Positions 10,773 to 59,615 of a stretch of 64,000 bases of DNA are shown here, piece after piece. This DNA is from Solirubrobacter ginsenosidimutans. GTDB lineage: Bacteria; Actinomycetota; Thermoleophilia; Solirubrobacterales; Solirubrobacteraceae. Numbering within the stretch: the first letter of the stretch is position 1; each line of letters opens with the position of its first letter. Location: the NCBI RefSeq assembly GCF_027587205.1, contig NZ_JAPDOD010000033.1, forward strand, positions 1 to 64,000. The letters run 5' to 3'. The position numbers and the translations under genes were made by a program. The notes under the pieces were generated by a model. The model was given only the letters and a program-made list of their open reading frames with translations, made no database searches and was not told the origin of the DNA.

Positions 10773-13460
10773 TCAGCCGCTCGGCTGTGGCAGCGGAGCG
10801 CGCCGCACGTCTTCCGGGATCGCGTCGGCGATCTGCGCGCGCGAGCTGATCTCGAGCTTGGCGAAGATCTTGCTGAGGTGGTATTCGACCGTCCGGGGAC
10901 TGATGAACAGCCGCGTGCCGATCTCGGCGTTGGCCAGCCCCGCGCCCGCGAAGCGCGCGATCTCCTGTTCGCGTTCGGTGAGCCCGTCGCGCAGCTCCGG
11001 CTTGCGCGCTCGCGCGTTCTTGCCCGCGGCGCGCAACTCGCGGGCGCAGCGCTCGGCGAACGCGTGCGCGCCGAGCGCCGTGAACGTTCCGTGCGCGCGC
11101 AGCAGCATGTCGCGGGCGTCCCGCCGGCGCCGCTCGCGGCGCAGCCATTCGCCGTAGAGCAGCTGGGCGCGCGCCAGCATCCCGGTGAGGCGGGCTCGCG
11201 CGAGGCACTCGATCGCGGCGCGGTAGCGCGCGTCCGCGCTGGGGCCGTCGAGGACGAGCGCCTCGGCGACGGCTTGCGCCCCGCGCGCCCAGTCGGTGTC
11301 GGCGGCGTCGGTGGTCGCCGTCAGCCGCACGAGCGCCAGCTCGGCGCGCGTGCGATCACCGGTGCGCACCGCCGCCTCGACGAACTCGCACAGCGCCCAG
11401 GCGGCGTACGGTCCGTGTGCCGCCCGCTCGGCGACGCGCAGTGCTTCGGCGTAGTCGCCGCGCGCGTTGTGCGCCAGCGCGGCCGCGAAGCCGGCGGTGC
11501 CGGGTCCGGCGCCCTCGGTGAGCGCTGCGGTGTCGCACTCCCCGCCACTCCAGGCCGCCACCACGAGCGGCCAGTCGAGCGTGAGCCGGTTGGGCGCCAC
11601 GGCGGCGATCGTGGTCAGCTCGTCCGCGAGCGCCCGCGCGCCCGCGAGATCGCCCGCGACGACGCGCACGCCGATGCGGGCGTCGAGCGCATCGGGGAGC
11701 AGGCCGAGCGCGCCGGTCTCGCGCGCGAGGACGTATTGCCGTGCCGACAGCGCGTCCCACGCCTCGTAGTCCCACAGGTCCACGGCGACGCGCGTGGCCA
11801 GCGGCAGCCAGGACAGCTCGTCCTCGCGGGTCGCGCGGCCGTGGACGAACTCGCGGACGGCGCGCCGGTTCGCGTCGGCGCCGGCCGCGAAGCCTGACGA
11901 CCAGCGGCGCGTGAGGCCGTCGAGCAGGAGGCCGCCCGCGTCGGGCGAGGGTTCGCCCGCGGCCGCACGTGCGTCCGCGGCGATCGTCGCGCCGCCCGAG
12001 CCGGCGCCCAGCGCGGCGCCGTAGGCCTCGAGGTAGCAGTCGCGCGCGATCTGCGGGGCCAGCGGCTGGATCCGCCGCGCCGTCTGCAGCAGCAGCGGCT
12101 CGGCGTCCCCGCCGTCGGCGACGATGGCCTGCGCCCGCAGCAGGTCGGCCTGCGCGCGGTCGACCTCGCTCAGCGGCCCGGCGTCGGCGACGGCCAGCAT
12201 GTGGAGCATGGCGTCGACCGCGCCGGCGCGATGCAGCATGCGCGCCGCGGCGAGCGCCCGTGCGGCGTGTTTGGAGGGCGTCGACGTGAGCGCGGTCGCG
12301 CGCTCGAGGAAGGCCCCGGCCGCCGGGAACCCTCCATGCGCCTGGGCGCGCCCGGCCGAGCGTTCGAGCTCGTCGGCGACGGCGTCATCCGGTCCCGCCG
12401 TCGCGAGCGCGTGATGCCAGGCCCGCATCTCGGGCGCGGCCGCCGGGTCCGTCGCCGCGGCGAGCGCGCGGTGGGCGGCGGAGCGCTGATCCGCGGTGGC
12501 CAGGGCGTAGATGGCCGACCGGATACGCGGATGCCGGAAGCGCACGTGCCCATTGAACTCCGCCAGGCCGGCCGCGGCGTCGACGGCGTCCGGGCCGACG
12601 CCGAGCTCCGCCGCTGCGCGCCGCACGAGCCGCGCGTCGCCGACGGGCTCCGCCGCCGCGATCAGGAGCAGCTGACGCGTATCCGCGGGCAGGGCGTGAA
12701 TCCGTCGCGTGCTCGCGTCGCAAGGCCGCCGAGCGGTGATCGTGCGCGGGACGCCGAAGCCTCCGGCCAGCTCCGCCGCCGTGAGGCCGCGGCTGAGTTC
12801 CAGCAGCGCCCGCGGGTTGCCCTGCGTCTCGTCGGCCAGCCGCTCCGCGATCCGCTCGTCGAGCGGCCCGGCGACCGCGGACCGCAACAGGGCGCACGCG
12901 TCGGCGCGGGCGAGCCCGCCGACGGTGAGCGTCGGCAACCCGTGCAGTCCGCGCCTGAGGCTGGTGGCGGCGAGCACCAGCCCGACCTGCTCGTGCCCGA
13001 CGCGGCGGGCGACGAAGCCGAGGACGTCGGCTGAAGCGCGATCGAGCCACTGCGCGTCGTCGATGAGGCACAGCAGCGGCCGCTCGGCCGCGGCCTCTAC
13101 GAGCAGCCCGAGCGCCGCCAGGGAGACGAGAAACCCAGGAGGCGCCGGGCCGCCGCGCATGCCGAAGGCCGTGGCGAGCGCGTCACGGCGCGGCTCAGGC
13201 AGACGGTCGAGGCTGTCGAGCAGCGAGGCGCACAGCTGATGCAGGCCCGCGAACGGCAGGTCCATCTCCTGCTGCACGCCGACGGCGCGCACGACACGAC
13301 AGCTGGACTCGCCCCGGGCAAGACGCTCGAGCAGCACCGTCTTGCCGGCGCCGCGGTCGCCGCGCAGAACGAGCGCGCCGCCGTGGCGGCGACGGATGTC
13401 GGCGACGAGCCGATCCAATGTCCCGCACTCACGCTCGCGCCCGCGCAGCACCGCATCCAC
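10773..13460 (-). CDS. LuxR-family transcriptional regulator with AAA ATPase domain (LAL type)
   Basis: An 895-residue large ATP-binding LuxR regulator. Residues 5-300 are an AAA_16/NB-ARC-like ATPase with Walker A GDRGAGKT (34-41) and Walker B CLIDDAQWLD (131-140). The middle (about 330-800) is a helical TPR-like region likely to bind a ligand or partner protein. The C-terminus (about 824-885) is a LuxR/GerE helix-turn-helix (LTEREQEIARFAGAGLANAE, then ISPRTVEYHLSKIF). GTG start at 13460. It precedes the acyltransferase and hydrolase genes on the same strand (82 bp gap), which are its likely targets or co-transcribed partners. Closest relatives in the window are the regulators at 28873 and 37203, which share the YGEWLRRERRR and TVEYHL motifs. 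The inducer is unknown. Confidence 0.9.
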   Translation of the reverse strand: MDAVLRGRERECGTLDRLVADIRRRHGGALVLRGDRGAGKTVLLERLARGESSCRVVRAVGVQQEMDLPFAGLHQLCASLLDSLDRLPEPRRDALATAFGMRGGPAPPGFLVSLAALGLLVEAAAERPLLCLIDDAQWLDRASADVLGFVARRVGHEQVGLVLAATSLRRGLHGLPTLTVGGLARADACALLRSAVAGPLDERIAERLADETQGNPRALLELSRGLTAAELAGGFGVPRTITARRPCDASTRRIHALPADTRQLLLIAAAEPVGDARLVRRAAAELGVGPDAVDAAAGLAEFNGHVRFRHPRIRSAIYALATADQRSAAHRALAAATDPAAAPEMRAWHHALATAGPDDAVADELERSAGRAQAHGGFPAAGAFLERATALTSTPSKHAARALAAARMLHRAGAVDAMLHMLAVADAGPLSEVDRAQADLLRAQAIVADGGDAEPLLLQTARRIQPLAPQIARDCYLEAYGAALGAGSGGATIAADARAAAGEPSPDAGGLLLDGLTRRWSSGFAAGADANRRAVREFVHGRATREDELSWLPLATRVAVDLWDYEAWDALSARQYVLARETGALGLLPDALDARIGVRVVAGDLAGARALADELTTIAAVAPNRLTLDWPLVVAAWSGGECDTAALTEGAGPGTAGFAAALAHNARGDYAEALRVAERAAHGPYAAWALCEFVEAAVRTGDRTRAELALVRLTATTDAADTDWARGAQAVAEALVLDGPSADARYRAAIECLARARLTGMLARAQLLYGEWLRRERRRRDARDMLLRAHGTFTALGAHAFAERCARELRAAGKNARARKPELRDGLTEREQEIARFAGAGLANAEIGTRLFISPRTVEYHLSKIFAKLEISSRAQIADAIPEDVRRAPLPQPSG

Positions 13461-22167: not shown

Positions 22168-24798
22168 TCAGCGCCTGCGCGATGACGTCGCCAGCAGCCC
22201 GAGGTCGCGGCCGCGCTGGACGGCATCGGCGCGCCGATGCACGCCGAGCTTGGCGTAGAGGTGGCGCATATGGGTGCGAATCGTGTTCTCCGAGACGAAC
22301 AGCTCGGAGGCGATCTCCGTGGCGTGCAGGTTGGTCGGCAGGTAGCGCAGCACGCGCAGCTCGCTCTCGCTCAGCGGGTCCCGCAGCGGCTCCACGTCGC
22401 GCGGGCGGCCCGCCCCCGCCTGCCCGGCGAGCAGATCGAGGAGCTCTGCCACCAGCGCCGCGTGGGCCGTCCGGGCACGCGCATGGCGCTCGAGCAGGTC
22501 CGGCGCCGGGAACAGCAGGAAGGGCAGGAGCAGGCCGCTGCGCTCGCCCAGGTCGAGCGCGCGCTCCAGCGCGCGTGACGCGGCGCCGGCGTCGCCGCGG
22601 GCATCGTCCGCGAGCGCGCTGAGCAGGAGGGCCGACATCGGGGCTTCGGTGCGGGACGGCTCGACTCCCGCGAGCAGCTCGGCGGCGGTGTCGGCATCGT
22701 CGCGCGCGAGCGCCAGCGCGGCCGCGACGATCGCCATCTCAGCGCTGCCGTCCAGGGCTGGCTCGACCGCTTCCCAGTGGCCGGCCCGGATCTGGGCCAG
22801 CAAACGGTGCACGCGCACGCGCGCCGCCAGCACGTGCGTCGGCAGCAGGGCGTGGACGGCCTCGGCGGCGGCGAACTCGCTCAGCGCTTCGTCGACCCGG
22901 CCGCGGACGAGCTCCAGCAACCCGCGCGAGCCGTGGAACATCACGGCGACGGCCGGTTCGACCTCGGGCAGCACGGCCTGCTCGCCGCGTTTGAGCCACA
23001 CGTCCGCCTCCTCCAGGCGTCCCTGCCAGAGCATGCTCGAGCCCAGGACGGTGTACACCACGCCGACGAACGGCTTGTCCTCCCAACCGTTGGCGCGCGC
23101 GAGCGCGAACGCCTGCAGCTCGGCCTCGTCCGCAGTGCCGGTGCCGCGCAGGGCCGCGGCCAGGCCCGAGTAGGCCAAGGCCCCGAGCTCGAACACCGGC
23201 CGGTCGATCCGGCGCGCCAAGGTGACGGCCATGTTCAGGTGGCGCTCGGCCTCTTCGAGCTGCCCGGTCCAGATGTTGGTGATGCCGAGCTCGTGCAGCG
23301 TGAGGGTGCGCAGGTCGTCGCTCAGCGCGACGTGCGCGGTGCCGCCCTCGGCCGGCACGAGCAGACGCTCGGCGAACGCCGCGACGCCGTCGAGATCCAT
23401 GCGCCTGCGCGCCAGCGAGAGCCGCATCGCGGCCACATAGACCTCCAGTCGCTCGCGCCGCTCGCTGGGCAGCGACGGCGCCCCGCGGTCGGCGAGCGTG
23501 AGGTAGCGTTCGGCGGCGTCGAGCGAGCCCATGGTGAGCTGGTCGATCGCGGCCACCGCCGCGAGCTCGGGGTCGGCGGTGGCCGTACCGGACGGGAACA
23601 GCGCGAGCAGCTCGCGCGTGGTGGTGGCGCGGCCGTCGAGGTACAGGCTGTAGAAGCTTTCGGCGAGCAGCCGCGCGCCCTGGGTCCAGTCCTCCGCCGC
23701 CAGCGCGTGGCGGACGGCCTCGACCGGGTGGCCGTTGGCCGCCAGCCACTCGCTCGCGGTCGCGTGCAGCGCCTGCAGCTCGTCTCCCGACTGGCGCCGG
23801 AGCTCGAGCGCCAGCAGGTCGGCGAACAGGTTGTGGTAGCGAAACCACGTGCGCTGCGGGTCCAGGGACACGACGAAGGCCTGCTCGTCCTCGAGCTCGG
23901 TGAGAATGCGCTGCGCCCCGGTCCCGCCCGTCAGCCGGTCGGCGAGCGGGCCGCTCACGCGCTCCAGGATCGACGTGCGCAGCAGCAGCCGCGTGACCTC
24001 GGCCGGCTGGCGGTCGAGCACTTCCGCCAGCAGGTACTCGGCCACCGTGCGCTCGCTGCCCGAGAACTCCGCGGCGAAGCGCTCCGGGTCCGGGTGGTGG
24101 ACGAGCGAGAGCGCGGCCAGGCGCAGACCCGCGGCCCAGCCCTCGGTCCGCGCGACCAGGGCGTCCAGCGCCGCGTCCGACAACCGCGTCCCCGTGGCCT
24201 CGATCAATGCGCGCGCCTCCTCGCGCGAGAAGCGCAGGTCGGCACCTCGGAGTTCGGTGAGCTCGCCCTGCAGGCGCAGGCGGTGCAGGCCCAACGGCAG
24301 GTCGACCCGTGTGAGCAGGATCAGCCGCATCGGAGGCGGCGCATCCGCCACGAGCCGGCTGAGCTGCTCCAGCGTGTCGCGGCCCGCGAGCTCCTGCACG
24401 TCGTCGAGCACGAGCCAGAGCGGCTGGGCCAGCGGACGCAGGTCCTTCAGCAGCCCATCCACGATGTTCCAGACATCGAGGTCCGGGGCGGCGGTCAAGG
24501 CGCCGACGAGCGCTGATCCCGGGCGCGTGGCCCGCACCGCGTCCAGCACAGAGAGCCAGAACCGCTCCGCGTCGTGTTCATCGCGGCCCACGGAGACCCA
24601 GGCCGCGTCGTCGGACAGGTTCGCCTCGGCGATCCACGTGCGCACCAGCAACGTCTTACCGCTACCCGCTCCGGCCGAGATCTGCGTGACGCGCCCGGCA
24701 CCCGCGAGCACCGCGAACAGACCCGGGCGCACAACCGCTCCGGTGCCGCCACGCGCGGCGGCATGACCGGCGGCTCGCGATCCGCTCCGCGATTTCAT
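22168..24798 (-). CDS. MalT-like LuxR-family ATPase regulator
   Basis: An 876-residue large regulator of the MalT subgroup. Walker A GAGSGKT (43-49), Walker B WLVLDDVQEL near 145-155, the MalT-type stretch RTEGWAAGLRLAALSL near 245 and WFRYHNLFADLL near 330, then a TPR-like region, and a C-terminal LuxR helix-turn-helix (LSESELRVLRYLPTNLHATE, then VSENTIRTHMRHLY). The frame is also open to ATG 24837 and GTG 24867; 24798 is a conservative start that leaves space for a promoter facing the divergent small gene at 24851. Its closest relative in the window is at 40778-43381, down to the LRVLRYLPTNL motif in the helix-turn-helix. Both regulators neighbour the same small unknown protein. The inducer is unknown. 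Confidence 0.9.
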   Translation of the reverse strand: MKSRSGSRAAGHAAARGGTGAVVRPGLFAVLAGAGRVTQISAGAGSGKTLLVRTWIAEANLSDDAAWVSVGRDEHDAERFWLSVLDAVRATRPGSALVGALTAAPDLDVWNIVDGLLKDLRPLAQPLWLVLDDVQELAGRDTLEQLSRLVADAPPPMRLILLTRVDLPLGLHRLRLQGELTELRGADLRFSREEARALIEATGTRLSDAALDALVARTEGWAAGLRLAALSLVHHPDPERFAAEFSGSERTVAEYLLAEVLDRQPAEVTRLLLRTSILERVSGPLADRLTGGTGAQRILTELEDEQAFVVSLDPQRTWFRYHNLFADLLALELRRQSGDELQALHATASEWLAANGHPVEAVRHALAAEDWTQGARLLAESFYSLYLDGRATTTRELLALFPSGTATADPELAAVAAIDQLTMGSLDAAERYLTLADRGAPSLPSERRERLEVYVAAMRLSLARRRMDLDGVAAFAERLLVPAEGGTAHVALSDDLRTLTLHELGITNIWTGQLEEAERHLNMAVTLARRIDRPVFELGALAYSGLAAALRGTGTADEAELQAFALARANGWEDKPFVGVVYTVLGSSMLWQGRLEEADVWLKRGEQAVLPEVEPAVAVMFHGSRGLLELVRGRVDEALSEFAAAEAVHALLPTHVLAARVRVHRLLAQIRAGHWEAVEPALDGSAEMAIVAAALALARDDADTAAELLAGVEPSRTEAPMSALLLSALADDARGDAGAASRALERALDLGERSGLLLPFLLFPAPDLLERHARARTAHAALVAELLDLLAGQAGAGRPRDVEPLRDPLSESELRVLRYLPTNLHATEIASELFVSENTIRTHMRHLYAKLGVHRRADAVQRGRDLGLLATSSRRR

Positions 24799-24850
24799 CC
24801 GAAAACGGTGACGCCGACTCACCGGCCCGGCAATCATCCTGTTGACCAGG

Positions 24851-25129
24851 ATGTCCGAGCCTTTCACCAGACCTCACTACGAGATCCGTGTCCGCGGCCG
24901 GCTCGGCCCCACGCTGCTTGAAGCGTTCCCTTCACTGGCCGCGGAACCGTCCGAGGGTGAGACCGTGCTCGCCGGCGCGCTACCCGACCAATCCGCGCTC
25001 TACGGCGTTTTGCGCCAGCTCGAGGCCCTCGGTCTCGAGCTGGTCGAGGTGCGCCGGTTCGACCGTATGCCGGGCGGTCCCGAGCTCGTGGTCCGGCGGG
25101 TGAACGGTTCCCCGCCGCCCGGCGAGTGA
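24851..25129 (+). CDS. Small conserved partner protein of MalT-like regulators
   Basis: A 92-residue protein without a named family that I can assign. It opens with YEIRVRGRLGPTLLEAFPSL, followed by GETVLAGALPDQSALYGVL and a helix LEALGLELVEVRR: two beta strands, a helix and an ACT/ferredoxin-like rhythm that suggests a small ligand-binding or dimerising domain. It is divergent from the MalT-like regulator at 22168. The protein at 43437-43688 is clearly homologous and lies directly downstream of the other MalT-like regulator. This repeated pairing suggests that it modulates, or is regulated by, these ATPase regulators. ATG 24851 is used; a TTG at 24842 is an alternative. Confidence 0.8.
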   Translation: MSEPFTRPHYEIRVRGRLGPTLLEAFPSLAAEPSEGETVLAGALPDQSALYGVLRQLEALGLELVEVRRFDRMPGGPELVVRRVNGSPPPGE

Positions 25130-25213: not shown

Positions 25214-25774
25214 ATGCTCGACGACCGCGAACTCGACGCGCCACAGCCCATCACGATGCCGGCGACCGTCAAGGTCGACCCCGTGTGCTTCTGGCTGGCG
25301 GTGGCGAGCGCGCTCGGCGTGATCATCGGCGCCGTCGGCCCGTGGACGACCGCCTGGGGCATGGTTCAGGTGAGCGGCACGGGCATGCACGGCTGGCGCG
25401 AGGTCGCCGTCGGCGTCGTCGCGCTCGCGCTGCTCGCCGTCCACCGCCGGCGCGGCGGGGCGCTCGAGCTCCTGCTCGCGGCCGCCGACGGCGTGGTCGG
25501 CGCGTCGGGCGCCGCCGTGGCCCTGTCGAAGATCAACGCGAACGACACGCTGTCGGTCCTCGGCTTCCACTACACGTTCCTCGATCCCGCCTGGGGCATC
25601 TACCTCGTCCTCGGCGGCGCGATCCTGCTCACCTGCTGCGCCTCCACGCTGGCCTGGCGCAGCGCCCGCCGAGCGCGGTCCGATCGCAGACCGCGTGCGA
25701 CGTACTCCTCCGGGAGTACGCCGAAGACTGTCCTTGAGACCGATGACGGGAGCGCGCCGCTCGCCGATCATTGA
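25214..25774 (+). CDS. Membrane protein of unknown function
   Basis: A 186-residue protein with four hydrophobic segments (about 25-48, 66-80, 85-105 and 128-150) and a basic, polar C-terminal tail that is probably cytoplasmic. Segment one, WLAVASALGVIIGAVGPW, is followed by a TTAW...GTGMHGW loop; LSKINANDTLSVLGFHYTFL links helices three and four. It resembles uncharacterised actinobacterial four-helix membrane proteins. ATG 25214 is used; a second ATG at 25256 would remove only a polar lead. A strong terminator lies about 90 bp downstream. Confidence 0.72.
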   Translation: MLDDRELDAPQPITMPATVKVDPVCFWLAVASALGVIIGAVGPWTTAWGMVQVSGTGMHGWREVAVGVVALALLAVHRRRGGALELLLAAADGVVGASGAAVALSKINANDTLSVLGFHYTFLDPAWGIYLVLGGAILLTCCASTLAWRSARRARSDRRPRATYSSGSTPKTVLETDDGSAPLADH

Positions 25775-28872: not shown

Positions 28873-31632
28873 ATGAGTCATGCTCTCGGGATGGTCACGA
28901 GGCTGCCCGGAGCTCAGTTGTTCGGGCGCGAGCTCGAGCGCGAGGCGCTCGAGCGGCTTCTGGACCAGGTGCGCAGCGGCCATTCTGCCGTGTTGGTCGT
29001 GCACGGCGAGCCGGGCGCCGGGAAGACCGCGTTGCTCCGGTACGCGGTCGAGGCCGCGCCGGACTTTCGCGTCGCGAGAACGGTCGGAGTCGACGGCGAG
29101 ATGGGGTTCGCGTTCGCGGCGCTGCAGCGGCTCTGTGCGCCGTTGCTCGAGCTCGCCGAGCGGCTCCCGCCTCCTCAACGCGACGCGTTGGCCGTGGCGT
29201 TCGGACTGCGTTCCGGGACCGCGCCGAATCCGTTCCTCGTCGGGCTGGCAGTCCTCGGGGTGTTGTCGGAGGCCGCGGAGGAGCAGCCGCTGCTCTGCCT
29301 GGTCGACGATGCGCAGTGGCTCGATCGTGCGTCAGCGCGCTCGCTGGCGTTCCTCGGCCGCCGCCTGCTGGCAGAGCGGATCGCGCTCGTGTTCGCGACC
29401 CGCGAGTTGGGCGACGCGACGGCGGGCCTGCCGGAGCTCAGCGTCCAGCCCCTGGGGCGGCGCGATGCGCGAGCGCTCTTGGAGTCCGAGCTGCCGGCGC
29501 CGCTTGACGAACGGGTGCTCGAGCGGATCGTGTCCGAGACGCGCGGCAACCCGCTCGCCCTGTTGGAGCTGCCGCGCGGGCTGACGCCCGCGCAGCTCGC
29601 GGGTGGGTTCGGCCTGCCCGCCGCGGCGCCGCTCTCCGCGAGCATCGAGGAGAGCTTCGCGCGGCGGCTGGCGAAGCTTCCGCACGATGCCCGGCGGCTG
29701 TTGCTGCTGGCCGCGGCCGACCCGGTCGGTGACCCGGCGCTCGTCTGGCGCGCAGCCGAGTCCCTCGGGATTCCCGATGCGGCGGCGGAGACGGTCGAGG
29801 CGCAGGGCCTTCTCGCCTTCGCCCCGCATGTGGTGTTCCGTCACTCGCTCGTGCGGTCGGCCGTCTACGGAGCGGCCGGGCTGGGGGAGCGGCGTGAGAT
29901 GCATCGCGCGCTCGCCGACGCCACCGATCCCGCGATCGATCCGGATCGCCGGGCGTGGCACCGCGCGCAGGCGGCGGCCAGGCCCGACGAGACGATCGCC
30001 ACCGACCTCGAGCGGTCAGCGGCGCGCGCGCAGGCGCGCGGCGGGTTCGCCGCCGCCGCGGCCTTCCTCGAGCGCGCGGCCGTACTCACCACCGACCAGG
30101 CGCGCCGGGCGCGACGTCAGTTGGCCGCCGCACAGGCGATGTTCCGCTCCGGGGCGCTCGCCGAGGCGCTCGAGCTGCTCACGTGGGCCGAGGCGGGAGG
30201 ACTCGACGAGTTCGAGCAGGCGCAGGCCGAGTTGCTGCGCGCTCGTATCGCGTTCGTCTCGTCGCACGGCAGCGACGCGCCGCCGCTGCTGCTCGGGGCC
30301 GCCCGCCGGCTGCAGCCGCTCGATCCGCCCCTCGCGCGCGAGATCTATCTCGAGGCGATGTCCGCCGCGATGTTCGCGGGGCGCCTCGCCTCGCCCGGCG
30401 GCAGCGCACGGGAGGTGGCGCAGGCGGCACGCGCGGCGCCCGCACCGGCCGTGGCGCGCGGTCCCGACCTGTTGCTCGACGGGCTGGCGACGATCTTCGG
30501 TGAGAGCTACAGCGCTGCCGCACCGGCGCTGCGGCGCGCGCAGGATGCGTTCGATGTCGCGGATATGCCTGCGACCGAGCAGCTGCGTTGGAAGTGGCTG
30601 GCAACCGTATCGGCCGTGCATCTCTGGGACGACGAGCGATGGCTGGCGCTCTCGGAGCGCCATGTCCAGATCGCCCGCGAGGCGGGCGCGCTCGCCGAGC
30701 TCCCGCTTGCGCTCAGCCAGCGCATCTACGTGCACCTCTTCGCGGGTGAGCTGACGGCCGCGGCCGCGCTGGTCCAGGAGATCGAGGCCGCCACGGAAGC
30801 GACCGGCACCGACCTCGCTCCGTACGGCGCGGTCGGACTTCTCGCCCTGCAGGGGAACGTCGCCGAGGCGACGCACCTGATCGATCGCAGCCGCACCGAT
30901 GTGGCACGACGCGGTGAAGGCATCGGGCTCTCCGCGCTCGACTGGGCCGAGGCCGTCCTCTACAACGGACTCGGGCGCTACGAAGACGCGCGCGCCGCGG
31001 CGCTTCGGGTCACTCAGCATCCGCACGACTTGAACACCTCGAGCTGGGGTCTGGCCGAGCTCGTCGAGGCCTCGGTTCGCGCCGGCACCCCGGAACTGGC
31101 CGCCGGCGCTCAGGTCCGCCTCGCGGAGATCGCGCGAGCGACCGGTACGGACTGGGCGCTCGGGATCGCGGCACGCTCGCAGGCACTCCTCGTCGAAGGC
31201 AGGCAGGCCGAGGAGCGCTACCGGGAGGCCGTCGATCGGCTGGCCCGAACCCGGATCGCGGTCGACCTCGCCCGCGCCCACCTGCTCTACGGGGAGTGGC
31301 TGCGGCGCGAACGCCGGCGCACGGACGCGCGTGCGGAGCTGCGCCGCGCACACGACCGCTTCTCGGGCTTCGGGATGACAGCGTTCGCGGAGCGGGCGCG
31401 GATCGAGCTCGAGGCCACCGGCGAGCGGGCGCGCAGGCGCACGGCGGACGCGATCGACCAGCTCACGCCGCAGGAGGCGCAGATCTCCCGCCTCGCCGGG
31501 CAGGGACACTCCAACCGCGAGATCGCCGCTCAGCTGTTCATCAGCCCGAGCACCGTCGAGTACCACCTCCGCAAGGTGTTCCGCAAGCTCGACGTCAAGT
31601 CGCGGACGCAGCTCGCTCACCGCATGTCGTAG
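28873..31632 (+). CDS. LuxR-family transcriptional regulator with AAA ATPase domain (LAL type)
   Basis: A 919-residue LAL regulator. Walker A GEPGAGKT (45-52), Walker B CLVDDAQWLD (142-151), ATPase lid and sensor region to about 310, TPR-like middle, and C-terminal LuxR helix-turn-helix at about 861-919 (LTPQEAQISRLAGQGHSNRE, then SPSTVEYHLRKVFRKL). It is a close paralogue of the regulator at 37203-39929: near-identical motifs DEPRGLTP/LELPRGL, SAARAQARGG and TGERARRRT/TGERARKRT. It heads a same-strand set with the isochorismatase-like and amidohydrolase genes (66 bp gap), its likely targets. ATG 28873 is used; ATG 28891 is also possible. No ribosome site is evident at either. Confidence 0.9.
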   Translation: MSHALGMVTRLPGAQLFGRELEREALERLLDQVRSGHSAVLVVHGEPGAGKTALLRYAVEAAPDFRVARTVGVDGEMGFAFAALQRLCAPLLELAERLPPPQRDALAVAFGLRSGTAPNPFLVGLAVLGVLSEAAEEQPLLCLVDDAQWLDRASARSLAFLGRRLLAERIALVFATRELGDATAGLPELSVQPLGRRDARALLESELPAPLDERVLERIVSETRGNPLALLELPRGLTPAQLAGGFGLPAAAPLSASIEESFARRLAKLPHDARRLLLLAAADPVGDPALVWRAAESLGIPDAAAETVEAQGLLAFAPHVVFRHSLVRSAVYGAAGLGERREMHRALADATDPAIDPDRRAWHRAQAAARPDETIATDLERSAARAQARGGFAAAAAFLERAAVLTTDQARRARRQLAAAQAMFRSGALAEALELLTWAEAGGLDEFEQAQAELLRARIAFVSSHGSDAPPLLLGAARRLQPLDPPLAREIYLEAMSAAMFAGRLASPGGSAREVAQAARAAPAPAVARGPDLLLDGLATIFGESYSAAAPALRRAQDAFDVADMPATEQLRWKWLATVSAVHLWDDERWLALSERHVQIAREAGALAELPLALSQRIYVHLFAGELTAAAALVQEIEAATEATGTDLAPYGAVGLLALQGNVAEATHLIDRSRTDVARRGEGIGLSALDWAEAVLYNGLGRYEDARAAALRVTQHPHDLNTSSWGLAELVEASVRAGTPELAAGAQVRLAEIARATGTDWALGIAARSQALLVEGRQAEERYREAVDRLARTRIAVDLARAHLLYGEWLRRERRRTDARAELRRAHDRFSGFGMTAFAERARIELEATGERARRRTADAIDQLTPQEAQISRLAGQGHSNREIAAQLFISPSTVEYHLRKVFRKLDVKSRTQLAHRMS

Positions 31633-37202: not shown

Positions 37203-39929
37203 CTACGACAGTCGTTCCGCGAGCTGCGTCCGTGACTTGACGCCGAGCTTGCGGAACGCCTTGCGCAGGTGATACTCGACGGTGCTGGCGCTGATGAACA
37301 GCTGCGCCGCGATGGCCCGGTTGGTCTCACCCTGTGCCGCCAGGCGAGCGATCTGCGTCTCCTGCGGTGTCAGCTGGTCGAGGGTGTCGACGGTCCGCTT
37401 GCGGGCCCGCTCACCCGTGGCCTCCAGTTCGAGCCGTGCCCGCTCGGCGAACGCGTCCATCCCGGCGTCTCGGAAGAACTCGTGGGCGATTCGCAGTTGT
37501 TCGCGAGCATCGAGCCGCCGGCGCTCCCGCCGCAGCCACTCGCCGTAGAGGAGGTGGGTGCGCGCGAGCTGAACGCGGATGCGTGTGCGACCGAGCCGGC
37601 TGATGGCCTCCCGGTAGAGCGCATCGGCAGCGTCGCCGTCGCTGAGCAAGGCGAGCAGGCGAGCCTCGATCCCCAGCGCCCAGTCGGTGCCGGCGGCGCG
37701 CGTTGTCTCTCTGACCCGCTCGAAGGCGCGCCGGGCACGCTCCGGCTGGCCGAGCCGAACGGCCGCCTCGATCAGCTCGGTCAGCGCCCAGATCGCCGGC
37801 CCTTCCCTGTAGAAGCGCTCGGCGGGTGCGACTGCGGCCAGCGCGGCCTCGTAGCGGCCGAGCGCGTTGTAGAGGCCTCCGCTGAGAAACTCGGCGTTCG
37901 TCAGGGCGATCCCCTCCCCCCGAGCCTCAGCGTCGCCGAGCGTGGTTCGGATCAACTCCGCGAACTCGGCCTCGCGACCGCGCAGCGCAGCCAGCGACAG
38001 CGCGCCACTCGGGTCCGCGGCAACGCCGATCGCCTCGGTTGCCGCCCGCTGTTCCTCCGCGAGGATCGCGGCGGTTCTCAGCTCACCGAAGAACGCGTAC
38101 ACCGCGATGGCGGAACCCAGATGGAACGCCAGCGCCGAGAGGGCACCGGTTCGGCGCGCGAGCTCGAGCTGCCGGGTGGACAGCGCCAACCAGGCGTCGT
38201 CGTCCCACATGAACAACGCGATCACGCTGGCGAACCACAGCCACCGTGCGTCATTCGGCGACAGGTCCTCCTCGCGCTGGAAGGCGTCCAGCGCCGCCTG
38301 GAGCAATGGCGCCGCGGGCGCATATCCCTCGGTGGCTTGCACCGCGAGTCCCCGCAGGAGCAGGTCAGACGGCTGCGGCTGGTCAGGCGGCGGGCCGGCC
38401 AGCGCCGCCTCGCTGATCTCGACCAGGCCGCCGCCTCCGATCAGGCGCCCCGCGAACGTCGCCGCAGACAGGGCGTCGAGGTAGGTCGCCCGTGCGAGGC
38501 CGGGATCCACCGCCTGAAGCTCGCGCGCGGCCGCGAGCAGCAGCGGGGCGGCGTCGCTGCCTCGCCGCGCCGCGAACGCGACCTGGGCACGCAACAGGTG
38601 CGCGTGGGCACGCAGTCCGTCGTCGACCGCCGAGCCGGACTCCGCGGTCTTCAGCAGCTCGAGCGCCTCGTCGAGCGCCCCGGCCTGGAGTTTCGTCTCC
38701 GCGGCGATCAGCGCGCGTCGCGCGCGGCTCATCGGGTCGGGCGAAAGGGCGACCGCGCGCTCGAGGAAGGCTCCGGCGGCGGCGAGACCGCCGCGGGCCT
38801 GCGCGCGTGCGGCCGAGCGTTCGAGCTCGGCGGCGACCTCCTCGTCCGGCTTGCCCGCGGCCTGCGCGCGGTGCCAGGCGCGGCGATCCGGGTCGATGTC
38901 CCGGTCGGTCGCCTCCGCGAGGGCGCGGTGGACCTCGCGACGGGCATTCGGCTCGGCGGACCCGTAGACGGCCGAGCGAACCAGTGGGTGGCGGAACGCC
39001 ACGCGGGGAGACAGCGAGAGCAGCTGCTCCGATTCGACGGCGTCGGCCGCCGACTCGGGGATCCCGAGCCGTTCGGCCGCCCGCCAGACCAGCGCCGGAT
39101 CGCCCACGGGGTCCGCGGCCGCGACGAGCAGCAAGCGCCGCGCGTCGGGCGGCAGCGTCGCCAGCCGGCGGGTGTAGCGGTCCTCGATCCCGGCGGACAG
39201 CGGCGCCGTGGTCGGCAGGCCGAACCCCCCGGCGAGCTGGGTCGGGCTCAGCCCGCGAGGCAGCTCCAGCAGGGCGAGCGGGTTCCCGCGCGTCTCGGCG
39301 ACGATCCGCTCGAGCACGCGTTCATCCAGCCGAACGGGCAGGACCGAATCCAGCAGCGTACGCGCGTCCGTGCGGTCCAGCGGGGCGACGTGGAGCTCCG
39401 GCAAGCCCGAGAGCGTCTCGCCGAGCTCGCGTGTCGCGAACACGAGGGCGATCTTCTCGGCGACGAGCCGGCGCGCCACGAAGGCCAGGGTGCGCGCGGA
39501 CGCACTGTCGAGCCATTGCGCATCGTCGACGGCGCAGGCGAGTGCCTGCTCCTCGGCGGCTTCGGCGAGCAGGCCGAGGACCGCCAGGCCGACCAGGAAT
39601 CGATCCGGTGCGGGTCCCGTCCTGCGTCCGAAGGCGACCTCGAGCGCGTCGTGCTGGGGTTGCGGCAACCGGTCCATGAGGTACAGGAACGGTGCACACA
39701 GCTGCTGCACCGCCGCGAACGGGAGCTCCATCTCCGCCTCGACCCCGACGGTGCGGGCGATCCGGAACTCAGGTCCAGCCTCGACCGCGTACTCGAGCAG
39801 CGCGGTCTTGCCAACGCCGGGCTCGCCGTGTATCACGAGCACGCCGCCTCGCCCGGCGCGCACGCCGTCCAGCAGCCGGTCGAGCGCGTCGCGTTCGCGT
39901 TCGCGGCCGACCAATGTCCTCCCGCTCAT
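37203..39929 (-). CDS. LuxR-family transcriptional regulator with AAA ATPase domain (LAL type)
   Basis: A 908-residue LAL regulator. Walker A GEPGVGKT (35-42), Walker B CAVDDAQWLD (132-141), TPR-like middle, and C-terminal LuxR helix-turn-helix (LTPQETQIARLAAQGETNRA, then SASTVEYHLRKAFRKLGVKS). Nearest relative in the window is 28873-31632. It is followed on the same strand by the coupled GMC oxidoreductase, MFS and esterase genes (45 bp gap), so one promoter upstream of 39929 may serve all four. Four copies of the element ATCCTT or a one-base variant lie just upstream of the start (minus strand of 39937-39966), a possible operator. It is divergent from the SDR gene at 39994. Confidence 0.92.
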   Translation of the reverse strand: MSGRTLVGRERERDALDRLLDGVRAGRGGVLVIHGEPGVGKTALLEYAVEAGPEFRIARTVGVEAEMELPFAAVQQLCAPFLYLMDRLPQPQHDALEVAFGRRTGPAPDRFLVGLAVLGLLAEAAEEQALACAVDDAQWLDSASARTLAFVARRLVAEKIALVFATRELGETLSGLPELHVAPLDRTDARTLLDSVLPVRLDERVLERIVAETRGNPLALLELPRGLSPTQLAGGFGLPTTAPLSAGIEDRYTRRLATLPPDARRLLLVAAADPVGDPALVWRAAERLGIPESAADAVESEQLLSLSPRVAFRHPLVRSAVYGSAEPNARREVHRALAEATDRDIDPDRRAWHRAQAAGKPDEEVAAELERSAARAQARGGLAAAGAFLERAVALSPDPMSRARRALIAAETKLQAGALDEALELLKTAESGSAVDDGLRAHAHLLRAQVAFAARRGSDAAPLLLAAARELQAVDPGLARATYLDALSAATFAGRLIGGGGLVEISEAALAGPPPDQPQPSDLLLRGLAVQATEGYAPAAPLLQAALDAFQREEDLSPNDARWLWFASVIALFMWDDDAWLALSTRQLELARRTGALSALAFHLGSAIAVYAFFGELRTAAILAEEQRAATEAIGVAADPSGALSLAALRGREAEFAELIRTTLGDAEARGEGIALTNAEFLSGGLYNALGRYEAALAAVAPAERFYREGPAIWALTELIEAAVRLGQPERARRAFERVRETTRAAGTDWALGIEARLLALLSDGDAADALYREAISRLGRTRIRVQLARTHLLYGEWLRRERRRLDAREQLRIAHEFFRDAGMDAFAERARLELEATGERARKRTVDTLDQLTPQETQIARLAAQGETNRAIAAQLFISASTVEYHLRKAFRKLGVKSRTQLAERLS

Positions 39930-40777: not shown

Positions 40778-43381
40778 GTGCAACTGATCTCCACCGACGC
40801 CTCGGCCGCCCGGGGCCTGCTGGATCGCGACGACCTCCTCCAGGTCCTGGATCGCGCCGTCAGCCGGCGCGTGACGATCATCTCGGCGCCGCCTGGAAGT
40901 GGCAAGACCTCGCTCTTGCGCGCATGGGCAGAGCGCGCGACCACCGTTCGTCACGTCACGTTCGTGTCCGTCGACCGCGACCAGCAGGATGCCCAGCAGT
41001 TCTGGTGCACCGTCCTGGACGCGCTCGCTCCCGAGACGCACCACGCGCCACTCGACGCCGATCAGCTCGTCGAGCTGATCGTCTCGGAGCTCGCCGGACA
41101 CGTCGATCCCGTCCTACTGATCGACGATCTCCACGAGCTGCGGTCCGCTGACGCCCTCAGGCAGCTCGAGCAGGTGCTGGCGGTGCTTCCGAGCTCTGCG
41201 CGCGTGGTGCTGTCGTCTCGCCGGGATCCGGCGATCAGGCTGCACCAGCTCAGGCTCGCGGACGAGATCGCCGAGATCCGAGCCGCCGATCTGCAGTTCA
41301 CCGAGCGCGAGACGCGCGAGCTGCTTGCGAGTGCTGAGGTCAGTCTGTCCGATGGCGGGGCGTCCGCCTTGCACCAGCGCACAGAGGGTTGGGCCGCCGG
41401 CCTGCGTCTCGCGGTGATCTCGCTCAACGGCCACGCCGATCCGGAGCGTTTCGTGGCTGAGTTCTCGGGCACCGACCGGGCGATCGGCGAATACCTGATG
41501 GCCGAGATGCTCGAGCGCCAGCCGAGCGAGGTTCAGCGCATGTTGCTGCGGACCTCGCTCGTCGAACGGCTGAACGGAGAGCTCGCGGACCTGTTGACCG
41601 GCCGCGCGGGCTCCGAGCAGCTGCTGCTGGAACTCGAGGACGCCAACGCGTTCGTCCTGTCGCTCGACGCTGAGCGCACCTGGTTTCGCTACCACCAGCT
41701 CCTAGCGGATTTCCTTCGCCTGGAGCTCCGCCGAACCGCGGCGGATGAGGTTCCCGCCCTCCACCGCCGGGCCGCGCGGTGGTTCGCCGACCGCGGAGAG
41801 GTCGTCGAGGCCGTCCGCCAGACGCTCGCGGCCGGGGACTGGCCCGATGCCGCTCGGCTTGTCGCGGACCACTCGTTCAGGTGGGTGCTCGACGGGCAGG
41901 CCGGAACGATTCGCGAGGTCCTGCAGGCGTTTCCCGAGGGCGCATCGGTCGATCATCCTGACCTCGCGCTGGCACACGCGGCAGCGGAGCTCAACCAAGG
42001 GCGGCTGGAGGAGGCGGCCGCGCAGCTGGCGCTGGCCGAGTCCCACGTCCAGAGCGCCCCGCCGGCGCGCCGCCGGCGCTTGTCGGTGGCGATCGCGTCT
42101 CTGCGGTTGGCGATCGCCCGGCGCAGCGGTCAGTTCAGTGAGGTGGTCGAGCAGGTGAATCTGCTCGATGCTTCGATGGCCGACGAGCCGAGCGAATCGA
42201 TGGCGATGGGGAGTGAGTTGCGCGGAGTCGCGCTGCTGAATCTCGGGATCGTCGAGACCTGGTCCGGGCGACTCGCCGACGCGCAGCGGCACCTCTCCGA
42301 GGGAGCCGCGCTCGCCCAGACGATCGGCCGGCCGTACCTGGAAGTCGCCTGTCGCGCGCATCAGGGGTTCCCGTCGAAGGTCGTCTCGGTTGCCGCCGCA
42401 CGCGAGCGCGGCCGTCAGGCGGTAGCGCTCGCCGAGCGCTACGGCTTGGACGATCGGCCGATACTCGCTCCCGCACTTGGCTCTGTGGGCGGCATGGCGA
42501 TCTGGATGGGCGAGTTCGACGAGGGAGAACGCTGGCTCCAACGCGCCTGGACGGTCGCGTCAACCTCCATCGATCCTGCCGCCGCCGTCCTGCTGCACGT
42601 GGCCACGGGCATGTTGCACGCAGGACGCGGGCACCATCGATCGGCGCTCGAAGCCTTCACGGCGGCAGCGCAGGCGCAGTCGCTGCTCACCGGTGTGCAC
42701 GCTCTCGCGCCCCGGATCACGGGATGGCTCGCGTCGATGCACGCTCGCCTCGGAAGCCTCGATGAGGCGCGCGCGACGCTCGCCGGATTCTCCGCTGACG
42801 CGGCGCGGATGGGTGTCCTCCCGAACGCACGTGCGGTGATCCTCCTGGAGGAAGGGGACCCCGCCGCGGCGGTCGAGGTACTCCGGGACAGCCGATCGTC
42901 CGCGATCGTCTCCCCGTTCACGCACGTGGAAGCGCACCTGCTGGCCGGTACTGGGTACCTGCGTCTGGGCGAGCGGGACGCCGCCGTCGCCGCCGCCGAG
43001 GAAGCGCTCTCGGTCGCCGAGTCCGACCGGCTGATCTTCCCCTTCGCACTGACCGACGCCGCGGAGCTCCTGCACGCGCTCCCCGGTCACCGAACGGCTC
43101 ACGGCGCCCTGCTCGCCGACGTCCTCGACGTGTTGCGCGGCGGGCCTTCACCGCGCCCCGACCAAGAGCCGTTCGACGAGTTGAGCCCGAGCGAGCTGCG
43201 CGTCCTGCGCTACCTCCCGACCAACCTGACACGGCCCGACATCGCGCGCGAGCTCTACGTGTCGATCAACACCGTCAACACGCACATCCGCAACATCTAT
43301 TCCAAGCTCGGTGCGCGTGACCGCTCGTCCGCCGTCGTCCGCGCGCGCGAGCTGCGGCTCCTCTCAGCCGGACGCGCCTGA
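40778..43381 (+). CDS. MalT-like LuxR-family ATPase regulator
   Basis: An 867-residue MalT-like regulator. Walker A APPGSGKT (37-44), Walker B LLIDDLHEL near 109-117, the QRTEGWAAGLRLAVISL stretch near 205, WFRYHQLLADFLRLEL near 303-318, TPR-like region, and LuxR helix-turn-helix (LSPSELRVLRYLPTNLTRPD, then VSINTVNTHIRNIYSKLG). GTG start ten bases after the SDR stop, with GGAGCGGA immediately before it. It is a paralogue of the regulator at 22168-24798. Directly downstream is the small homologue of that regulator's partner gene, then the molybdenum hydroxylase cluster. SDR, regulator, small protein and hydroxylase are all on one strand with short gaps and probably form one transcription unit. 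Confidence 0.9.
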   Translation: MQLISTDASAARGLLDRDDLLQVLDRAVSRRVTIISAPPGSGKTSLLRAWAERATTVRHVTFVSVDRDQQDAQQFWCTVLDALAPETHHAPLDADQLVELIVSELAGHVDPVLLIDDLHELRSADALRQLEQVLAVLPSSARVVLSSRRDPAIRLHQLRLADEIAEIRAADLQFTERETRELLASAEVSLSDGGASALHQRTEGWAAGLRLAVISLNGHADPERFVAEFSGTDRAIGEYLMAEMLERQPSEVQRMLLRTSLVERLNGELADLLTGRAGSEQLLLELEDANAFVLSLDAERTWFRYHQLLADFLRLELRRTAADEVPALHRRAARWFADRGEVVEAVRQTLAAGDWPDAARLVADHSFRWVLDGQAGTIREVLQAFPEGASVDHPDLALAHAAAELNQGRLEEAAAQLALAESHVQSAPPARRRRLSVAIASLRLAIARRSGQFSEVVEQVNLLDASMADEPSESMAMGSELRGVALLNLGIVETWSGRLADAQRHLSEGAALAQTIGRPYLEVACRAHQGFPSKVVSVAAARERGRQAVALAERYGLDDRPILAPALGSVGGMAIWMGEFDEGERWLQRAWTVASTSIDPAAAVLLHVATGMLHAGRGHHRSALEAFTAAAQAQSLLTGVHALAPRITGWLASMHARLGSLDEARATLAGFSADAARMGVLPNARAVILLEEGDPAAAVEVLRDSRSSAIVSPFTHVEAHLLAGTGYLRLGERDAAVAAAEEALSVAESDRLIFPFALTDAAELLHALPGHRTAHGALLADVLDVLRGGPSPRPDQEPFDELSPSELRVLRYLPTNLTRPDIARELYVSINTVNTHIRNIYSKLGARDRSSAVVRARELRLLSAGRA

Positions 43382-43436: not shown

Positions 43437-43688
43437 GTGGCCACGCCATTGGGCTTGTACACGATTCGGATACGCGGCCGACTGGGCGCTACCGCCCTGT
43501 CGGCCTTTCCATCGATGGTGTCTGAGCTGAAGGGCGGCGAGACCGTGCTCACCGGCTTGCTCGAGGATCGCTCCGCGGTGTTCGGCGTCGTCGCCCAGAT
43601 CGAGGCGCTCGGACTCGAACTCCTCGAACTCCGGCGGATCCAGCCGAGACCCAAGGCGCCTGAAGGGGGAATCACCGGCATCCGGTGA
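43437..43688 (+). CDS. Small conserved partner protein of MalT-like regulators
   Basis: An 83-residue protein homologous to the one at 24851-25129: YTIRIRGRLGATALSAFPSM matches YEIRVRGRLGPTLLEAFPSL, and the segment from GETVLTGLLEDRSAVFGVV through IEALGLELLELRR matches GETVLAGALPDQSALYGVL and LEALGLELVEVRR. The same strand-helix-strand rhythm suggests a small alpha/beta ligand-binding fold. GTG 43437 is used because it aligns with the paralogue's start; the frame is open back to 43311. It lies 55 bp after the MalT-like regulator and 21 bp before the molybdenum hydroxylase. Function unknown. Confidence 0.8.
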   Translation: MATPLGLYTIRIRGRLGATALSAFPSMVSELKGGETVLTGLLEDRSAVFGVVAQIEALGLELLELRRIQPRPKAPEGGITGIR

Positions 43689-43709: not shown

Positions 43710-46322
43710 GTGAGCCTGCAGCGCATGCAACTTGTCGTCAACGGTGCCGCTGCCGAGGTCGATGACCGGCACGCGAAGACCCCGCTGCTGTGGGTTCTGA
43801 GGGATGTCCTCGGCCTGCGTGGCACGAAGTTCGGGTGCGGTGGCGGGTTCTGCGCGGCGTGCACCGTGTTGGTCGACGGGCACAACACGAAGTCCTGCCA
43901 GACACCGGCCGAACGCGCGGCCGGCAAGGCCGTGACGACGGTCGAGGGCGCCGCCGGTCCGGTCGTGGACGCGGTCCGCGACGCGTGGCATCGCGGCAAC
44001 GTCGTGCAGTGCGGCTACTGCCAGCCTGGGCAGACCCTCGCCGCCGTGTCGTTGCTCGAGTCAGACGCCTCCCCCGACGACGCGACGATCGACCAGTGGA
44101 TGAGCGGGAACCTGTGCCGCTGTGGCACCTATCCGCGCATCCGCGCCGCCATTCACCGCGCCGCGGACACCCTCGCGGCGGGCGATGCGCCGGTCGCGCT
44201 GGTCGCGCCGCCCGAACTCGACGTGCGCCGCCTGACGCCTGAGGAGGCGAGCGACCCGGTCCATCCGTACATCCGGATCCACGCCGACGGGACGGTCCTC
44301 GCGTACTCGAGCCAGATCGAGATGGGGCAGGGGATCCACACGGGGCTGGCGACGATCGTCGCCGAGGAGCTCGACGCCGCGTTCGATTCGGTCCGGGTCG
44401 TCAACGCCGCGAACGGGGCGGGGCCGAACGGTGACGTCTACGGGAATCCCGCCGCCGGCGGCGCTCTCCAGCTCACGGGCGCGTCCAATTCGATGCAGGG
44501 GTACTGGATCCGGTACCGGCTGGCCGCCGCTCAAGCGCGGGCGCGGCTCGTGAACGCGGCGGCCGAGGCGTGGGACGTGCCGGCGGCCGAAGTCGAGGTC
44601 GAGGACGGCGTCGTGCGCCATGCGAGCGGGCGCCGGGCGGCGTTCGCCGAGCTCGCCGCGCGAGCCGAGCAGCTCCCGGTTCCGGACGGTGTGCAGCCCA
44701 AGGATGCGGCCGCCTACAAGCTGATCGGGCGCGAAGGCCGGCTGCGGGTCGACGCCGTAGGGAAGATCCTCGGCGCCACCCACTTCACGATCGACCTCAG
44801 CCTTCCGGGGATGCTGACGGCGCTCGTCCTGCACCCGCCGAGGTTCGGCGCCACGGCTGCCGCGATCGATGACCGGGCGGCGCTCGCCGAGGCCGGCGTG
44901 GCCGCGGTCGTCCCGATCGACGAAGGCGTCGCCGTGGTGGCCGAGAACCTCGCCGACGCGCAGCGTGGCCTGCGTGCCCTGGTCGTGGAGTGGGACGATG
45001 CGAACGCCGAGCGGCGCAGCACCGAGGAGCTGCTCGCCGAGCACCTGCGGCTCCTCGAGTCGCGCGAGAAGGCAGTGACGTCTCGGGACGACGGCGATGT
45101 CGACCGCGCCCTCGCCGACGCGGCCTCGACGGTCGACGCGACGTACGTGTTGCCCTACCTCGCCCACGCCGCGATGGAGCCGAACAACGCGGCGTGCCGG
45201 ATGCGCGACGACGGCGTGCTCGACGTCTGGGCCGGGACCGAGGGACCCCAGTACGTGAAGATGAACGCCTCCTCGATCGCCGGGATCGACGTCGAGCAGG
45301 TCGAGGTGCACGTCTCCTTCGTCGGCGGATCGTTCGGTCTGCACTCGAGCGCCGAACACGACCCGGTCGCCGAGGCCGTGCAGATCGCGAAGGCGCTCCG
45401 ATGGGAGCACCCGATCAAGGTGCAGTCACTGCGCGAGGAGGAGTTCAAGGTCGGTCGCTACCGGGCGATGGCCGTCCACCGGGTGCGGGCCGGCGCCGAC
45501 GCGGACGGTCGCCTCACCGCCTGGCATCAGGAGATCGTGGCCGCGCCGACTTCGATCAACCTGCCGTTCGTTCGCGACGTGATGTTCACGAACGGCGTCG
45601 ACTTCTTCACGACGACCGGTGCCGTCGACCCACCGTACGCCGTCGAGAACTTCCGGGTCGACTCGACCAACTTCGAGTCGCGGATCTCGACGATGGTCTG
45701 GCGATCGGTGGGCAACTCGCACACCGAGTTCGCGCGCGAGTCGGCGATCGACGAGCTCGCGCTCGCGGCGGGCCGTGATCCGGTCGACCTCCGTCGCGCG
45801 CTGCTCGCCGGCAGCCCGCGCACGGTGCGCGCGCTCGAGCTCGCGGCGGAGTCTGCAGGCTGGGGATCTCCGCTGCCGGAAGGGCATGCGCGCGGCCTCA
45901 CGTGCTCCGGCTTCCTCGGCCACAGCGCCAACGTGACCGAGGTCTCGCTCGATGCTCGCGGGCGCGTCCGTGTCGACCGGATCGTGTTCGCCCTCGACTG
46001 CGGGCGAAACGTCAACCCCGATCTCATCCGTGCGCAGGTCGAAGGTGGACTGCTGTGGGGGCTGAGCGCCGCGGCGTGGGGCGAGGTCGTCCTCGGCGAA
46101 GGCGGCGAGATCGTCACCCAGAACTTCGACCGCTACCCGATCCTGCGGATGCGCTCCGTCCCGCAGATCGAGATCCACCTGATCGACTCGACCGAGCCGC
46201 CGACCGGCGTCGGCGAGGTCTCCGTGCCCTCGGTCGCTCCCGCCCTGGCGAACGCCATCGCCGCGCTCACCGGGACCCGGATCCGGAATCTGCCCTTCTC
46301 CAAGACCATCAAGATCGCCTAG
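43710..46322 (+). CDS. Single-chain molybdenum hydroxylase (fused 2Fe-2S and molybdopterin subunits, isoquinoline 1-oxidoreductase-like)
   Basis: An 870-residue member of the xanthine oxidase family. Residues 5-160 are the 2Fe-2S subunit: plant-type cluster Cys43, 48, 51 and 63 (GCGGGFCAAC...SC) and the second cluster Cys101, 104, 136 and 138 (CGYC...CRC). Residues about 190-870 are the molybdopterin-binding subunit of the IorB/aldehyde oxidase type (SSQIEMGQGIHTGLATIVAE, FVGGSFGLHSS, and the C-terminal GEVSVPSVAPALANAIAALT). In isoquinoline 1-oxidoreductase and aldehyde dehydrogenase relatives these are two polypeptides; here they are joined and no FAD subunit is present. Such enzymes hydroxylate N-heterocycles or oxidise aldehydes and use cytochrome or other electron acceptors. 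GTG 43710 is used, ATG 43725 possible. The CDGSH and F420-reductase-like genes follow at once. Confidence 0.9.
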   Translation: MSLQRMQLVVNGAAAEVDDRHAKTPLLWVLRDVLGLRGTKFGCGGGFCAACTVLVDGHNTKSCQTPAERAAGKAVTTVEGAAGPVVDAVRDAWHRGNVVQCGYCQPGQTLAAVSLLESDASPDDATIDQWMSGNLCRCGTYPRIRAAIHRAADTLAAGDAPVALVAPPELDVRRLTPEEASDPVHPYIRIHADGTVLAYSSQIEMGQGIHTGLATIVAEELDAAFDSVRVVNAANGAGPNGDVYGNPAAGGALQLTGASNSMQGYWIRYRLAAAQARARLVNAAAEAWDVPAAEVEVEDGVVRHASGRRAAFAELAARAEQLPVPDGVQPKDAAAYKLIGREGRLRVDAVGKILGATHFTIDLSLPGMLTALVLHPPRFGATAAAIDDRAALAEAGVAAVVPIDEGVAVVAENLADAQRGLRALVVEWDDANAERRSTEELLAEHLRLLESREKAVTSRDDGDVDRALADAASTVDATYVLPYLAHAAMEPNNAACRMRDDGVLDVWAGTEGPQYVKMNASSIAGIDVEQVEVHVSFVGGSFGLHSSAEHDPVAEAVQIAKALRWEHPIKVQSLREEEFKVGRYRAMAVHRVRAGADADGRLTAWHQEIVAAPTSINLPFVRDVMFTNGVDFFTTTGAVDPPYAVENFRVDSTNFESRISTMVWRSVGNSHTEFARESAIDELALAAGRDPVDLRRALLAGSPRTVRALELAAESAGWGSPLPEGHARGLTCSGFLGHSANVTEVSLDARGRVRVDRIVFALDCGRNVNPDLIRAQVEGGLLWGLSAAAWGEVVLGEGGEIVTQNFDRYPILRMRSVPQIEIHLIDSTEPPTGVGEVSVPSVAPALANAIAALTGTRIRNLPFSKTIKIA

Positions 46323-59092: not shown

Positions 59093-59615
59093 GGGCAGCA
59101 ATGCTGGCACTTCGAGCCGGCTGCCCCCGCCAGACTCGTGGACGGAGGCGCCGACATCCAAAAGTGGGGCTCGACTACCGTGCGCGCGACTTATTGTTAA
59201 CTAGAGCGTCACCTGCGGCGTGATCTGCAACCCGGTGACGCCGCCGACGAGGTACACGAAGGCAGCGTTGCCGACTCGTAGGTCCGACACGACCCCTGGG
59301 GAGCGGTGTATTGGGCCCACCGACCCGCCCGCGTCTCAGAAGGTGAGATACCGCCGTCGCGTCGCGGGGATGCACTCCGCGACGCGAACCATCCGCCCTC
59401 TCATTTCCCTCCCGCGTCGAAATGTCAACCGGCACCGACCTGTCCGATGGCACGGTTGGTTCTGCCCGTTCGTACGTCGGCAACGCTCTGAGCGAAAACA
59501 CACCTCGTACGTGTTTGCCGCCGGAACGGTGAGGGCTGGTATGAGGGGCAGGTCCGACGCGGTTTCGCAGGACTGCACACTGCAGCCCTGACCGATGAAA
59601 CGGAGGCACTTCTAC
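59093..59615. other. Long intergenic region between divergent genes
   Basis: About 523 bp separating the LuxR ATPase (start 59092) and the alpha/beta hydrolase (start 59616). It is visibly less GC-rich than its flanks, with a TTATTGTTAAC segment around 59190-59200. Open frames on both strands (for example 59336-59578 minus) have no ribosome site and no family resemblance. It probably holds both promoters; the excess length leaves room for a small RNA or a lost gene, but nothing specific is seen. Confidence 0.5.

Follow-up and report, generated by a model that had tools for sequence, protein, structure and literature searches.

Two regulator and small-protein gene pairs in the window

We examined a 64-kb stretch of the Solirubrobacter ginsenosidimutans genome (positions 1 to 64,000 of contig NZ_JAPDOD010000033.1; G+C 71.8%), hereafter the window, with a focus on the gene of a large MalT-type STAND/LuxR regulator and the gene of a 92-aa protein beside it. 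The regulator is encoded at 22168-24867 on the reverse strand (899 aa from a GTG start; open reading frame (ORF) listing, Pfam, NCBIfam) and its putative small partner at 24851-25129 on the forward strand (ORF listing, a homologue in the window, AlphaFold model), the latter beginning with an ATG at 24851 or, alternatively, with a TTG at 24842 that would yield 95 aa. With the GTG at 24867 as its start, the head-to-head regulator gene would overlap the start of the small ORF; because relatives align from residue 26-60 onward, an in-frame ATG at 24837 or 24798 appears the likelier start and would leave a gap of 13 bp or 52 bp, respectively, between the two genes. Apart from the protein itself, a tblastn search of the window with the small protein recovered a single homologue, located at 43458-43664 (+) and sharing 59% identity across 69 aa (E=3e-23); matches further down the list were at chance level, starting at E=0.013. 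Translation of this homologue gave an 83-aa protein with a GTG start at 43437-43688 (+; stop 43688), whose gene begins 55 bp 3' of a second regulator gene of the MalT type at 40778-43381 on the same strand (+). The initial annotation of this DNA had described the 92-residue protein as divergent from the first MalT-like regulator and its only homologue in the window as adjoining the other one, and both descriptions were borne out.

By sequence, both regulators are of the MalT type, with a C-terminal LuxR helix-turn-helix (HTH), a TPR_MalT sensor, and a P-loop ATPase. In Pfam, the first one matched GerE (1.5e-13) and TPR_MalT (46.8 bits, cut-off 45) and just missed AAA_16 (30.7 bits, cut-off 32.6), and the P-loop GAGSGKT is visible in it; the second was assigned through its 42% identity to the first over the full length (blastp). 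Membership of MalT proper was rejected, as the scores against the NCBIfam equivalog PRK04841 (262.5 bits for the first and 245.4 bits for the second) lie below its cut-off of 537. Defense models in PADLOC gave no match at E<=0.01 for either small protein; the regulators matched weakly, through the HTH to CARF or CasR and through the ATPase to mad8.

Association with MalT-type genes across genomes

Homologues of the small protein were gathered from 23 loci of one genome-contig scan, two plasmid loci, and 152 regions of genomes found by profile, which together with the window made 178 sources; their 204 domain matches were reduced to 191 at E<1e-3 and to 190 after identical ones were dropped. 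Matches were present in 15/199 sampled genomes from the class of a Solirubrobacter, 46/197 from the class of a Kribbella, and 32/151 from the phylum of a Chloroflexi metagenome-assembled genome (MAG). Using a regulator profile built from 23 sequences, we found a MalT-type gene within 1 kb of 125 of the 190 small-domain matches, and 17 of the 65 matches without one sit within 2.5 kb of an end of their stretch. The commonest arrangement among the 125 pairs was the regulator followed by the small gene (84 pairs, with a median of 107 bp from the regulator stop to the small domain), the others being divergent (25), convergent (10), and small gene followed by regulator (6).

How close this association is was assessed in 111 loci that extend 7 kb or more to either side of the small domain, each represented by a single match and the window excluded. 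A MalT-type gene was found within 300, 500, 1000, 3000, and 6000 bp in 69, 73, 81, 92, and 95 of these loci, and the density of MalT-type genes per kb per locus was 0.658 at 0-500 bp and 0.005-0.050 past 1 kb. When positions outside the MalT-type genes were drawn at random in these loci, on average 7.4 and at most 16 (2000 trials) fell within 300 bp of such a gene, against the 69 observed, and a profile made from only the two regulators of the window still placed a MalT-type gene within 500 bp in 72 of the 111 loci. Of the 29 MalT-type genes that six genomes contain, 16 lie no more than 3 kb from a small gene; therefore, the partner marks a subset of the regulators.

The window also encodes five other large LuxR-type STAND ATPases, which Pfam and blastp assign to the AAA_16 type of LAL regulator (10773-13460, 28873-31632, 37203-39929, 49276-52008, and 56342-59161). 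These resemble the MalT-type regulators in being large STAND ATPases with a C-terminal LuxR HTH, and differ from them in that their best blastp alignment to the MalT type covers the HTH or is lacking altogether. No copy of the small protein was found by tblastn beside any of the five, and the 111 loci contain two AAA_16-type LAL genes in total, neither of them within 1 kb of the small gene. The pair is thus real, conserved, and tied to the MalT type and not to the AAA_16 LAL type. At seven within the 64 kb, large regulators of the LuxR-type STAND kind seem densely placed here.

In a Streptomyces locus, the small gene and the MalT-type gene convergent with it are separated by a distinct 172-aa LuxR-HTH ORF (L014:8326-8844, +). 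The small gene is also plasmid-borne (three records); on the plasmid loci L024 and L025, a LuxR regulator lies 3.2 and 3.6 kb away, respectively. L025 is the Acaryochloris plasmid pREC3, on which the small gene is cyanobacterial and accompanied by three DUF6326 genes within 2 kb. Literature searches returned no publication on the pair of small protein and MalT-type regulator among the matches listed.

Correlated distances within the pair

For 112 pairs, the distance matrices of the small proteins and the regulators correlated at r=0.82, with 0.075 as the largest value among 999 Mantel permutations. Because species history alone could yield this correlation, paralogous pairs inside one genome were also compared, which gave r=0.65 over 34 comparisons that are not independent, so that its P-value is not to be taken literally. 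Correlated distances thus characterize the two families, including paralogues within a single genome. The initial annotation had proposed a functional two-protein unit, for example with a co-sensor or an anti-activator. The two-gene unit is strongly supported by these distances and by the proximity within 1 kb in the 111 loci, in which homologues of the small protein do not occur mostly away from MalT-like genes as they might have; a role as co-sensor or anti-activator remains a proposal.

Sequence, fold, and selection of the small protein

Among proteins clustered at 90% identity, the first and second small proteins have 564 and 7912 homologues at E<=1e-3, and the first has no match above cut-off in Pfam or NCBIfam. 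The best-conserved positions across 127 aligned sequences are D46 (98%), G16 (95%), T38 (94%), G42 and G52 (93% each), and L50 and G61 (92% each), and the family carries the signature T-x-L-x-G-(x3)-D-Q-x-A-L-[HY]-G. A ferredoxin-like fold is predicted with good confidence: AlphaFold modeling of the first small protein alone, as advised at annotation, returned the order beta-alpha-beta-beta-alpha-beta (E9-15, H20-23, E30-34, E37-43, H47-59, E63-70), with a mean predicted local distance difference test score (pLDDT) of 80, block values of 86-90 across residues 11-70, and a predicted template modeling score of 0.60. Comparison of the second copy with nine close homologues reveals purifying selection on the small gene: differences at codon positions 1/2/3 number 687/540/1197 and the median ratio of nonsynonymous to synonymous divergence (dN/dS) over 45 pairs is 0.33, a value that is only indicative because dS is high. 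Seven loci (L131, L159, L169, L171, L172, L023, and L243) have two small domains or genes less than 2 kb apart, in L169 within one ORF, and a heterodimer of two nearby small proteins is conceivable.

Comparison with known regulatory domains

A possible sequence resemblance is to DrrA1-3_C (PF13732), the domain at the C-terminus of ABC-2 type ATPases. Two ABC ATPases identified by Pfam (L252:7287-8282, + and L273:4867-5442, +) carry the small-family domain at their C-terminus, where PF13732 matches below its gathering score of 27.4 bits (18.0 and 22.9 bits; E 0.0049 and 1.5e-4, respectively). In profile-profile comparison, the small family and DrrA1-3_C aligned over 66 columns in register (E 4e-5 to 8e-5), a match that was better than those to Lrp RAM, HMA, and 60 column shuffles; because DrrA1-3_C against HMA itself gives E 1.2e-5, the signal may reflect a mere shared superfamily. 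We rejected membership of the small protein in PF13732, as the window protein has no Pfam match and the gathering score was not reached. PF13732 matched one of the 115 family domains scanned (E 0.014), a set that includes the two ABC pieces and for which the matching member is not specified, and a PF13732 search of eight genomes had none of their small genes among the matches listed, as judged by eye. The stand-alone small proteins also differ from DrrA1-3_C in not being part of an ABC ATPase. The RAM (Lrp/AsnC) and ACT domains have a regulatory ferredoxin-like fold like that predicted for the small protein; the resemblance seen is one of common fold, the profile comparison with RAM having shown no sequence relation and ACT having been compared by fold.

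Neighboring genes and fusions

The genes next in line beyond the small gene, on either strand (n=74), are diverse, the commonest families being zinc alcohol dehydrogenases (7), DUF4386 (6), DUF6069 (4), and Abhydrolase_3, molybdopterin oxidoreductases, and DUF6325 (3 each). The regulator is the constant neighbor and the cargo varies, with the top family in 7/74 next genes versus a regulator within 1 kb in 81/111 loci. In the window, the gene downstream of the second pair encodes a [2Fe-2S]/molybdopterin oxidoreductase (43710-46322, +; Pfam), and the one downstream of the first small gene (25214-25774, +; ORF listing) encodes a product that is hydrophobic by eye and for which a Pfam search returned no family at E<=0.01; both are candidate targets by position only.

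Nineteen ORFs joining the small domain to another part were picked by eye and checked to be free of stops, and the seven scanned by Pfam comprise the two ABC ATPases and fusions to DUF4386 (L242), DUF6326 (L241), an alpha/beta hydrolase (L265), GNAT (L218), and SnoaL (L127). Twelve of the 19 (L238, L242, L247, L249, L259, L241, two in L226, L228, one in L243, L265, and L218) follow a same-strand MalT-type gene at a distance of no more than 200 bp. The five DUF4386 fusions are 76-93% identical to one another and, being such close relatives, are treated as a single event. One of them, from L242, was modeled with an N-terminal ferredoxin-like domain in the same strand and helix order followed by long helices (mean pLDDT 83). 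GNAT fusions were seen in L218, by Pfam, and in L219, L220, and L223, which look similar on visual inspection; of the four stretches examined, that of L218 alone includes a MalT-type gene.

Discussion

The adjacency of the small protein and an ATP-driven switch in several phyla suggests, without proving, a regulatory pair. As described in PMC10427625 and PMC6468293, Escherichia coli MalT is kept inactive through direct binding by MalK (with determinants in the C-terminal domain), MalY, and Aes, and PMC6468293 places MalT among the STAND proteins, related to NLR and APAF1-type switches. The likeness lies in a MalT-type STAND/LuxR regulator with separate modulators from a transporter or enzyme context (PMC10427625, PMC6468293), and in the small domain occurring here fused to a hydrolase and to membrane proteins right behind such regulators. 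The small protein differs from these inhibitors in its size of about 90 aa, its predicted ferredoxin-like fold, and its being encoded beside the regulator, with inhibition here only a proposal, and the small family has no Pfam relation to such enzymes.

We consider it on balance probable that the small protein acts as a partner dedicated to its cognate MalT-type STAND regulator, which it would bind and whose activity it would set, most likely by keeping the regulator at rest in its ADP state pending a signal. The ferredoxin-like domain would bind its own regulator, and the regulator would be released by a small molecule or by the state of a fused or neighboring membrane protein or enzyme, and the neighboring genes would form the regulon. 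A constant adjacent small partner that is at times built into a membrane protein or hydrolase would suit the logic by which MalK, MalY, and Aes act on MalT, here in the form of a small portable module. Several observations weigh against this interpretation: a MalT-type gene is lacking within 1 kb in 30 of the 111 full-context loci and within 6 kb in 16 of them, in the six genomes, a small gene is missing from the 3 kb around 13 of the 29 MalT-type genes, and fusions in L219, L220, and L223 (GNAT-like), L127 (SnoaL), and L252 and L273 (ABC) were seen with no MalT-type gene in the stretch examined. None of the 190 matches has the small domain fused to a MalT-type regulator, and the fusions found, to effector-type proteins or ABC ATPases, point at least as much to those proteins.

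These fusions would also be expected if the small protein served the downstream membrane protein or enzyme under regulation, as its subunit, adaptor, or chaperone, and never touched the regulator, its gene simply being the first of the target operon, and the modeled DUF4386 fusion, with its ferredoxin-like domain ahead of long helices, would suit such a role. We regard this explanation as rather unlikely, given that the regulator is a constant neighbor and the next gene differs greatly between loci, that the divergent and convergent pairs (35/125) need no common operon, and that the distance correlation with the regulator persists among paralogues of one genome. A role as a soluble co-sensor seems to us unlikely as well; here the small protein would be a ferredoxin-like ligand binder like RAM or ACT that presents an effector to the tetratricopeptide repeat (TPR) sensor of the regulator, and would act as an activator instead of an inhibitor. 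Ordinary co-inheritance, in which a conserved and functionally unlinked small gene moves with MalT-type genes on horizontally transferred segments, could account for its occurrence on plasmids and in a minority of the sampled genomes, and is nonetheless highly improbable, as the pairing is retained in diverged lineages with tight spacing and in four orientations, and the drop in density past 500 bp and the purifying selection are ill-suited to passive linkage.

Beyond a partner that restrains its own regulator, the small domain could be a portable regulator-docking module resembling the domain at the C-terminus of ABC ATPases. It would serve MalT-type switches in Actinomycetota and Chloroflexota, in one Eremiobacterota MAG and, with a looser link, on a cyanobacterial plasmid, as a protein of its own or as part of the very membrane protein or enzyme on whose state it reports; we offer this wider proposal tentatively, as a possibility that we lean against. 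To our knowledge, what most bacterial MalT relatives sense is unknown. A small partner that marks a subset of these regulators and belongs to a family of thousands offers a way to learn how such switches are kept inactive or set off, and the effector fusions suggest candidates for the proteins that MalT-type switches watch. A large family of small proteins that is unrecognized by Pfam and NCBIfam thereby gains a testable role, and, if true, a portable docking module would represent a general, modular version of the action of MalK, Aes, and MalY on E. coli MalT.
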